Notes under the pieces: generated by a model
Told to the model about the DNA's origin: nothing
Seen by the model: only the letters and a program-made list of their open reading frames with translations
The model's database searches: none
Part shown: piece by piece, positions 33,684-63,245 of the stretch
Layout: each line of letters opens with the position of its first letter
Numbering within the stretch: position 1 is the stretch's first letter
Position numbers and translations under genes: made by a program
Source: Verrucomicrobia bacterium LW23
GTDB lineage: Bacteria; Verrucomicrobiota; Verrucomicrobiia; Methylacidiphilales; UBA1321
Reading direction: 5' to 3'
DNA length: 64,000 nucleotides
Assembly (NCBI GenBank): GCA_003054695.1
Contig: QAZA01000045.1
Location: 941,956 to 1,005,955, forward strand

Positions 33684-33780
33684 CCTTTGCGGGCTGCCTT
33701 TGGGCGCATGCTGCGTTGGCCTTTCGGTCGTGCATTTTTCAGATGCACTCTCTGAAGCCCGCCTTGCCTGCATCCCACAA
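33684..33780. repeat. decayed copy of a MITE-like repeat (copy A)
   Basis: About 95 bases match the core of the element at 52175-52336, including GCGGGCTGC, TTTGGGCGCA, GCTGCGTTGG, TGCATTTTTCA and AAGCCCGCCTTGCCTGC in the same order. The left end keeps only a shortened version of the terminal repeat, and the right terminal repeat is missing. It lies between two convergent genes. Confidence 0.85.
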
Positions 33781-33828
33781 TGTTCTCCGGCGCTCTCGGA
33801 GGGCGCTTGACTCCCAACCTCGCGACTC

Positions 33829-51496: not shown

Positions 51497-52015
51497 TCAG
51501 TCCGCAGTCGCGGCGGTGGGTTCCGGGGAGGCTGTGGGCCAGCTTACGGAGGCTACGGCCATGGCGGCGATGCCTTCGGCGCGGCCGATGAAGCCGAGGC
51601 GCTCGTTGGTGGTGGCTTTGAGGTTGATGCGGTCCGGGGCGATGCTGAGGGCTTCGGCCATGGCGGCCTTCATCTCGGGGATGCGGCGCACGATTTTGGG
51701 GGCTTCGGCGATGACAGAGGCGTCGATATTCTCGATAATCGCGCTTTTTTCGTCCAGGTGGCGGCGGATTTCGCGCAGGAAGACGGTGCTGGGGACGCCG
51801 CGCCAGCGTTCGTCGGTGTTGGGGAAGTGGTGGCCGATATCGCCGCCGCCGATGGCGCCGAGCAGGGCGTCGGCGATGGCGTGGATGAGGACGTCGGCGT
51901 CGGAGTGCCCGTCGAGTCCTTTGGGGTGCTGGAATTCCACGCCGCCGAGAAAGAGGCGCCGCCCTTCGACGAGGGGGTGAACGTCGTAGCCAATGCCGAC
52001 TCGGTTTGTCATCAT
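51497..52015 (-). CDS. ispF: 2-C-methyl-D-erythritol 2,4-cyclodiphosphate synthase
   Basis: The 172-residue enzyme cyclises a methylerythritol intermediate in isoprenoid synthesis. It has GIGYDVHPLVEG (zinc Asp and His), GHSDADVLIHAIADALLGA, GGDIGHHFPNTDERW, and LKATTNERLGFIGRAEGIAAMAV near the C-terminus, with a slightly extended Pro/Thr tail. Two adjacent ATG codons (52015 and 52012) are both possible; the second starts MTNRVGIGYD. Longer upstream frames are Pro/Arg-rich and unlikely. It heads the run that continues with cysS. Confidence 0.97.
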   Translation of the reverse strand: MMTNRVGIGYDVHPLVEGRRLFLGGVEFQHPKGLDGHSDADVLIHAIADALLGAIGGGDIGHHFPNTDERWRGVPSTVFLREIRRHLDEKSAIIENIDASVIAEAPKIVRRIPEMKAAMAEALSIAPDRINLKATTNERLGFIGRAEGIAAMAVASVSWPTASPEPTAATAD

Positions 52016-52174
52016 AAATGCGTGCAGCCCGCGCGTGGGGCAGGGGAGGGGGAGCGAGAAAGGGGGAAGGGTAGCGGGATTTGCGCGGGGGCACAAGTGC
52101 GGAGTTGACGGGGCGCGAGCGAAGCGCGGAGACACGGTTGGGAACAGCGGCGGCGCGGGGGCGCGGCCTGCTTA

Positions 52175-52336
52175 GACCAATTCGCACAGTTATTTGGCCT
52201 TTTGGCGGGCTGCTTTTGGGCGCAAGCTGCGTTGGTCTTTCGGTCATGCATTTTTCAAACGCACTCCCTCAAGCCCGCCTTGCCTGCATCCTAAAATCGG
52301 CGCCGCCAAAAGGCCAAATAACTGCGCGAATTGGTC
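52175..52336. repeat. MITE-like element with ~33-bp terminal inverted repeats (copy B)
   Basis: The left end 52175-52207 starts GACCAATTCGCACAGTTATT and continues TGGCCTTTTGGCG. The right end, about 52301-52336, is its complement with essentially one base change. The 95-base core contains GCGGGCT / AGCCCGC as a second inner pair and shares an ordered block with 33684-33780. No clear target-site duplication is visible. It has no coding capacity of its own and lies between ispF and the YCII gene. Confidence 0.88.
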
Positions 52337-52468
52337 GAAGTAAAGCTGCCGGGGCCTTCGACCAGCCATTCGCGGTCTCCAGGGCGCCGGTGATGTAAGT
52401 GGCGCGCCGGTTTGCGTCCGCCTGCGCCCGGTGCGTAAGGGCGATTCAGCCGCCCACAAAAGCCTGGA

Positions 52469-52864
52469 TTACTGATTCTTCCAGGTGGCCGCGGGGATAT
52501 CTTCCACCTCATACATGGGGCGGATCTCGATGATGGCGTCTTCGCCTACCATCGGCTGGGGGCAGCGCTTGGCCCATGCCAGGGCTTCGTCCATTGTCTT
52601 GACTTTCCAGATCCAGAAGCCGGAAACCAGCTCCTCGTACGGGGTAAAGGGGCCGTCCACGATGGTAATTTCCCCACCGCCGGACTGGTGCCGCACGTAT
52701 AGGCGCTTGCCCTCGGAGCTGGGGCGTACGCCTTCGGCGGCCAGCACCATGCCGGCGGCATTCAGCTCCTCGTTAAACTTGTCCATCGCATGGATCAGCG
52801 CCTGATCGGGCATGACGCCCTGTTCCGCATTCTTTGTTGCCTTGATGATAACAATGACTCGCAT
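52469..52864 (-). CDS. YCII-related (DGPF-domain) protein
   Basis: The 131-residue product has the YCII/DGPF fold. RVIVIIKATKNAEQG opens it, IVDGPFTPYEELVSGFWIWKVKTMDEALAWAKRCP carries the DGPF motif and the conserved helix, and EIRPMYEVEDIP ends it. Related domains are found with ECF sigma factors and in small dimeric proteins of uncertain chemistry. ATG 52864 is preceded by AGGAGA, a good ribosome-binding site. There is no sigma factor partner next to it. Confidence 0.92.
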   Translation of the reverse strand: MRVIVIIKATKNAEQGVMPDQALIHAMDKFNEELNAAGMVLAAEGVRPSSEGKRLYVRHQSGGGEITIVDGPFTPYEELVSGFWIWKVKTMDEALAWAKRCPQPMVGEDAIIEIRPMYEVEDIPAATWKNQ

Positions 52865-53002
52865 CGAAGTTCTCCTGTATTGAGCAGCGTGCAGCCAAAC
52901 GGATGACGGCCCTGCTTCTGATACTACGACGAACGGGCGCTGCACGGCGGGACAACGCAGGAGCAAAAGCCTGGCGGATGGTTGGCAACAGAATCGGGCC
53001 CG

Positions 53003-63204: not shown

Positions 63205-63245
63205 GGGACTGAGGCCAATGAGCAGAGCTATTTGGCCTCAGTCCC
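63205..63245. repeat. perfect 14-bp inverted repeat in a divergent promoter region
   Basis: GGGACTGAGGCCAA (63205-63218) and its exact complement (63232-63245) flank a 13-base loop, between the divergent SIMPL and HExxH genes. Because it lies upstream of both genes it is unlikely to be a terminator; an operator or small mobile hairpin is more likely. Confidence 0.75.

Follow-up and report, generated by a model that had tools for sequence, protein, structure and literature searches.

A 162-bp intergenic element bounded by long terminal inverted repeats (TIRs) raises two questions: how did it come to be where it is, and what does it carry between its ends? The element lies in a 64,000-nt stretch of the genome of Verrucomicrobia bacterium LW23, the whole of which we call the window. 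An earlier note, made from the sequence, had read it as a member of a repeat family mobilised in trans or of a structured RNA family. We found it to be one copy of a MITE family, an identification that is well supported. The best explanation as a whole, namely a MITE with an L132-type IS630 transposase as candidate mover and a TNA target, is one in which we place considerable confidence.

The element is located between a YCII-domain gene (52469-52966) and ispF (51497-52012), both on the minus strand. It matched covariance model R1 with 167.9 bits (E = 3.5e-44), and full copies elsewhere in the genome were 97% and 93-94% identical to it by blastn. The features of the window are collected in Table 1. 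Being short (162 bp), non-coding and bounded by 34-nt arms, the element has the form of a bacterial MITE. The TIRs of about 33 bp in the earlier note were accurate: beyond the element proper, complementarity reaches 95% across 38 nt (52171-52208 with 52303-52340), leaving 94 nt in between. The fold is exceptionally stable, with z = -11.3 as RNA and -10.9 as DNA, and on either strand 0 of 200 shuffles reached this stability. An inner pair, GCGGGCT (52205-52211) and AGCCCGC (52272-52278), is indeed present, although GCGGGCT has the outer right arm, not AGCCCGC, as its partner in the best fold. The Rfam 15 covariance models gave no match to the window at gathering. Finally, the two flanks of this copy differ, so a target duplication has not been preserved here.

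Table 1. Coordinates of the family's features in the window
Feature	Position	Strand	Remarks
Full-length 162-bp MITE, subtype A	52175-52336	- (model orientation)	Covariance model R1, model positions 1-162
Left terminal inverted repeat, begins GACCAATTCGCACAGTTATTTGGCC	52175-52208	.	34-nt arm
Right terminal inverted repeat	52303-52336	.	34-nt arm
Structured core, model positions 28-135	52202-52309	-	Segment common to other genomes of the class
Most conserved segment, GAGGGAG-hairpin-GACCG, with tandem G-A internal loop	52241-52270	-	Subtype-consensus fold, alignment columns and other genomes
Left flank, TTA (TNA type)	52172-52174	.	
Right flank, GAA	52337-52339	.	Unlike left flank
Decayed relative	33690-33789	-	Covariance model E = 5.5e-15, model positions 32-131 of 162
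25-bp relic, ends GGCCAAT...ATTTGGCC	63213-63237	.	Same kind of ends; overlooked in the earlier note

The window holds two further family members. The diverged relative that the earlier note placed near 33684, with its right end lost, is real: it is 87% identical to the full-length element across 107 bases (blastn), its left end is worn and its right end absent. It too is intergenic, lying between two convergent genes, one RNase H-like and the other encoding a topoisomerase. The second is the 25-bp relic, whose host flanks, GGGACTGA and TCAGTCCC, prolong the palindrome by ~8 bases per side. Another 25-bp relic (L100 2097-2121) has host flanks GGGAATCA and TGATTCCC that do the same, as if host DNA had been converted to match.

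Copies are numerous and dispersed. The covariance model located the family at at least 72 distinct places in the 6.6-Mb genome (127 rows; at least 60 places of 155 nt or more), counts that are lower bounds as the best 150 of 2924 first-look candidates were scored, and in which ~3 of the 72 places were probably counted twice because the matches on C9:1-149.5k and C10:1-149.5k are mirror images of one another across ~149 kb (reverse order, coordinates summing to ~149.5 kb). Either a large segment is duplicated in inverted orientation or the assembly is redundant here; the only pair of stretches compared from these contigs, L224 and L230, was not letter-for-letter reverse-complementary as oriented. 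In other searches, blastn with the element returned 58 matches in its own genome, pattern searches for two kinds of terminal repeat found 66 and 82 ends, and TNAGACCAAT occurred at 155 sites vs 20 for the reversed pattern.

A total of 68 elements was taken from the loci: 51 have lengths of 161-164 bp, and the other 17 are shorter (25, 32, 36, 41, 58, 103 and 110 bp). By their arms, the long elements fall into subtypes A (n = 5), B (n = 28), C (n = 16) and D (n = 2); E (L138) and F (L224) are each represented by one divergent element. All six subtypes have GACCAATT ends in common and differ in the remainder of the terminal repeat. Mean identity was 94-97% inside a subtype and 59-75% between the consensus sequences of A-D. 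The MITEs at L011, L028 and L039 adjoin another repeat, starting AGAGGCTGTCGACATT and resembling the end of DDE_Tnp_1 locus L066, which we regard as nested insertions.

Identical 3-bp flanks were present in 49 of the 68 elements, as compared to a mean of 19.1 when right flanks were permuted, and none of 5000 permutations reached 49. The identical flanks are nearly all TAA, TTA, TCA or TGA, and identity over 4 bp was seen in 0 of the 68; together, these data fit a 3-bp TNA target duplication. The 19 elements with unlike flanks include the full-length window copy (TTA/GAA). Target-site duplications, raised in the earlier note as a point to check, are thus a feature of the family. That note had also considered chance duplication of a local sequence the likelier origin if the genome held no further copies and the ends resembled no transposon; dozens of copies were found, as was a transposon with similar ends, described below. 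Although both window copies are intergenic, as they would be if they were intrinsic terminators or products of chance or local duplication, such an origin is extremely improbable and is refuted by the copy number, ~70 dispersed copies, and by their target duplications.

Mobilisation in trans, as the earlier note proposed, was supported by these dozens of copies, by the exact TNA duplications and by a matching IS630-family element. Whole-genome searches with an IS630 protein and DDE_Tnp_1 gave no place in the window, which thus holds no matching transposase, as the earlier note had stated; an element with matching ends was found elsewhere. Specifically, an intact 1158-bp IS630-family insertion sequence (IS) at C19:29912-31069 (L132:1413-2570) has the TIR GACCAATTCCATRCGTTAATCGGTA at both ends and TTA on both sides, i.e., a duplication other than TA. 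Among all family ends inspected, those of this IS are the one pair 1158 bp apart. Its 361-aa ORF scored 177.2 bits against the NCBIfam IS630 model NF033545 (cut-off 100) and 71 bits against DDE_3. Acidic residues 191, 270 and 303, in the contexts VEDE, WDGAG and NPVE, are predicted to form the catalytic triad. In the IS630 protein search, this IS was the only close copy in the genome. A 346-bp relic, L133, contains IS630 C-terminal coding sequence (tblastn E = 6e-11 vs IS630 loci), and its end agrees with subtype B, the commonest MITE type, at 24 of 31 positions in register.

The degree to which the MITE ends resemble those of the L132 IS varied with subtype. Over TIR positions 9-25, agreement was 13/17 for E, 10/17 and 9/17 for F, and 9/17 each for B, C and D, with shuffle P values for subtypes B-F ranging from 0.00005 or less to 0.02. 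Subtypes E and F also share ATCGGTA with the IS at positions 19-25. Subtype A, that of the window, has GACCAATT plus GTTA at positions 15-18 in common with the IS; beyond position 8 its left TIR agrees at 8/17, which taken alone is not significant (P = 0.056). Likeness to an IS630 element of the same genome is thus strong in E, F and B and weak in A. The L132 TIR is not identical to that of any MITE subtype, and the intact IS is single-copy. In blastn comparisons of the MITE with the IS or the L133 relic, all of the matches listed start at the element ends, in register. Simple deletion from the L132 IS does not account for the MITE, since nothing in that IS corresponds to the MITE core. Judging from these sequence comparisons, an IS630-type transposase is the likely mover of the family: the transposase, of which the genome has one intact copy, would bind the GACCAATT ends and excise the element, and joining of the excised element to a TNA target would generate the 3-bp duplication. 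At L071 (C53, ~1895-2110), a fragment resembling the IS630 transposase (37% identity over 68 residues) directly adjoins a subtype B MITE that is truncated.

Some members of the IS5 group likewise insert at TNA targets. Given this overlap and an assembly that is 95.4% complete, another transposase could be the mover, and core-bearing elements of other genomes, described below, end in, e.g., GAACCTGTTTGG or GAGGCTGTCTG. Nevertheless, we consider movement by an IS5-group transposase unlikely: the ends and target duplication of the L132 IS630 element fit the family, whereas GACCAATT ends were found at 0 of the 7 DDE_Tnp_1 loci of the genome, and the DDE_Tnp_1 ends that were found (L064 and L066) consist of CTAG plus AACCTATCTCAA or AGGCTGTCGACATT. 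The seven DDE_Tnp_1 transposases were rejected as movers on the basis of their ends. ISAzo13-type transposases, one of them intact and with ends GGAGTCGTCCAGAAATAAC, were likewise rejected; the intact element (L130 1141-2469; PF07592, 469 bits) has 42-nt ends that are 81% complementary. Finally, a 1816-bp stretch between two family ends at C23 (L067) contains a cellular-type ORF in which no transposase was recognised, and was treated as a coincidence.

A second, independent set of flanks, those of IS630 relatives, bears on the preferred mover and its target. At E <= 1e-20, 33 of 383 other genomes of the class contain relatives of the L132 transposase, as do 12 named loci, mostly from MAGs of Verrucomicrobiota or Kiritimatiellae. 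Identical 3-bp flanks were found at 12 of the 21 relatives with a detected TIR, vs 4.6 in permutations, and 38 of the 42 flanks were TNA; these 21 include L159 and L179, which share their ends and probably represent a single sequence present in both of two collections, as well as two loci with weak, probably false TIRs (L177 and L181), while three loci cut by contig ends and four without a TIR stand outside the count. The closest relative, L167 (45% identity), has ends TACCATTTCTTACTGATAATCGGTA and agrees with the L132 IS at 11/17 inner positions. L153, a more distant IS630-like locus of the LW23 genome (32% identity), differs in its ends, and its target reads TA. MITE flanks and IS630-relative flanks thus both support TNA, rather than TA, as the target. 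In the portions of the literature used here, TA is given as the rule for the IS630 group (PMC2229807, PMC7386202), and TAA and TAAA duplications are described for fungal Fot-type elements (PMC7386202). A search of open-licence PMC literature for IS630 elements with a TNA or 3-bp target returned nothing relevant. Were a branch of IS630 to use such a 3-bp target, the known target choice in the IS630/Tc1/mariner group would become broader.

The closest described parallel in kind is RUP of pneumococcus, which is 107 bp long, occurs in ~108 copies and has IS630-Spn1 as its proposed mover (PMC2229807, as excerpted). Like RUP, the present family comprises short, non-coding, intergenic repeats in high copy number whose TIRs resemble those of an IS630-family element. 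By the same excerpts, RUP targets TA, the duplication expected of an IS630-linked MITE of this kind, whereas that of the present family is the 3-bp TNA; the present family also differs in having six terminal subtypes on one folded core, which is found under different ends elsewhere. We therefore class it with the RUP/IS630 kind of MITE, its target being non-standard. Correia/NEMIS, ERIC and other hairpin MITEs are similar in their length of 100-200 bp and long stem-loops, and the sections consulted report that their transcripts may affect neighbouring mRNA (PMC2229807, PMC3733652); compared by description, most have TA at their termini, unlike the TNA seen here. The IS630-Tc1-mariner and fungal Fot (pogo) elements have related DDE transposases, with one branch making a 3-bp duplication (PMC7386202, in part). 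Fot is, however, eukaryotic and uses TAA, whereas the IS630 branch described here belongs to bacteria and targets TNA (TAA, TTA, TCA and TGA seen). REP/BIME sequences with RAYT are also dispersed extragenic palindromes and are reported, in the relevant part of the source, to be enriched in a verrucomicrobial genome (PMC3733652). As described there, REPs are 20-40 bp long, have a GTAG or CGTC tag at one end and are linked to tyrosine transposases, whereas the present element is 162 bp with TIRs and target duplications; size, TIRs and duplications all place it outside REP/BIME. Literature searches of open-licence PMC papers found no paper describing these elements.

The shorter elements and the arms bear on what happens to copies after insertion. 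Identical 3-bp flanks were present in 10 of the 17 shorter elements vs 4.2 expected, and duplications are kept in many of those of 25, 32, 41 and 58 bp. By eye, the junctions of small relics lie at short repeats common to both arms, e.g., TTTGC in the 32-mers, the pattern that slipped deletion within a hairpin would leave. Older copies may therefore lose their middle by deletion between short repeats of the hairpin, leaving relics of 25-58 bp.

RNAalifold predicted 50 pairs across 52 copies, with two-sided changes in 25. Of 10 two-sided changes inside subtype C, 8 are complementary (~0.2 expected); several of the C cases go back to one change shared by descent. Subtype B has 2 complementary two-sided changes vs ~0.1 expected. 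In two subtype B copies, L033 and L124, a right-arm tract now reads as the left arm's complement, suggestive of template switching; at L093:1888-2049, both outer arms changed together. These tracts and joint changes, along with four mini-elements whose flanks prolong the palindrome into host DNA, are what a purely mutational process would leave, in which template switching copies arm onto arm without selection on structure. We give this explanation nearly an even chance. Against it, certain mismatches, A-G near position 40 and tandem G-A around GAGGGAG/GACCG, have been kept through subtypes A-D in nearly all copies and have not been corrected away. We read the arm pattern as repair plus some selection: template-switch repair of the hairpin may keep the arms complementary, as may selection for the fold, and the two processes may act together, a step of which we are less confident than of the transposition itself.

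The core has a distribution of its own. At E <= 0.01, the covariance model found matches in at least 29 of the 383 other genomes of the class; at this threshold, chance alone would yield ~4 of 384 genomes if the E-values, which are rough, were exact. Up to 7 best candidates were scored per genome, such that copy numbers are lower bounds. These matches often span model positions 28-135 (~108 nt) only, without the ends found in this genome. Detection in the relatives depended on the model: blastn with the 162-bp element found no match outside its own genome among 97 relatives, and a 25-base core pattern had no match among genome contigs. A PDB sequence search yielded nothing useful. The cores show, in order, GGCAAGGCG, GAGGGAG, GACCGA and CAACGC. 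This four-part motif, picked after inspection of the alignment, occurs in 13 of 26 cores of other genomes vs 2 of 5200 shuffles; a further 3 matches were found across 148,476 flank bases.

Where copies were inspected, the core lies in short repeats whose ends vary. In genome G188, core copies have GAACCTGTTTGGATAAAA ends, with TNA duplications in 5 of 7. Further ends are GAGGCTGTCTGAAAAG (TTA), GGGTCTGCTCAAAAATAA (TAA), GGGCCTGTTAAGA with CTAG, and AGAGCATATTCGC, and the core element at L235 has a TACCACTTCT end resembling IS630-type ends. In this survey, some TIRs fell inside the core and were uninformative on ends, and as CTAG flanks are palindromic, a CTAG duplication is indistinguishable from a longer TIR. 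The CTGT-type ends we take to resemble those of the IS5 group. From these differences, one core apparently sits under the ends of at least two transposase types, suggesting a portable, conserved core.

The usual picture of a bacterial MITE is that of a dead deletion derivative of a single IS, with an interior not worth keeping. In the present MITE, the inside appears to be the older, better conserved part, common to elements with the ends of different transposases. A functional RNA or ssDNA hairpin is a possible reason for its retention; the structured RNA family proposed in the earlier note may thus apply to the core, in view of the covarying stems and of its presence under different ends in other genomes. 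The core, not being IS-derived, may be a structured module under its own selection, although we are less confident of this step. Our own formulation, held tentatively, is that a ~100-nt tandem G-A module resides in MITEs with unrelated termini (IS630-type TNA, IS5-like TNA and CTAG) across the class, and that the module rather than the ends is the lasting entity, an RNA or ssDNA hairpin that aids its carrier MITE or host and swaps transposase vehicles. A related proposal, to which we give a little less credence, makes the core itself a candidate functional structured RNA or ssDNA hairpin, its tandem G-A loops and CAAGGCG/CAACGC strands active and the MITE ends merely a vehicle. The spread of the core over other genomes under differing ends argues for such a function, as do stems that vary while loops stay, a GG:CC pair followed by a 2x2 loop in the folds of 18 of 31 cores, and the frequency of the motif relative to shuffles. 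Weighing against it are the post hoc choice of that motif and its occurrences in flanking sequence, the few pairs that RNAalifold predicted on 25 realigned cores (6 of the 31 rows, poorly aligned, having been dropped), and the Rfam result: the hits at 15 core-bearing loci comprised only tRNA and some overlapping ones below threshold, with none on a core. If the core is indeed kept by selection, the family would provide a concrete case of MITE cargo under selection and a defined motif in which to test for RNA or hairpin function; a portable conserved core would be reason to rank the family above an ordinary MITE.

Two features of core copies in other genomes were also observed. In genome G007, the elements at L280-L283 are longer and have a second hairpin-like segment to the right of the core (TTTTGGCCGGCGGCTATGCTCCTCGCTCGGCTCC...GCCGGCCAAAAT). 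In genome G070, the core copies at L285 and L286 adjoin tRNA genes.
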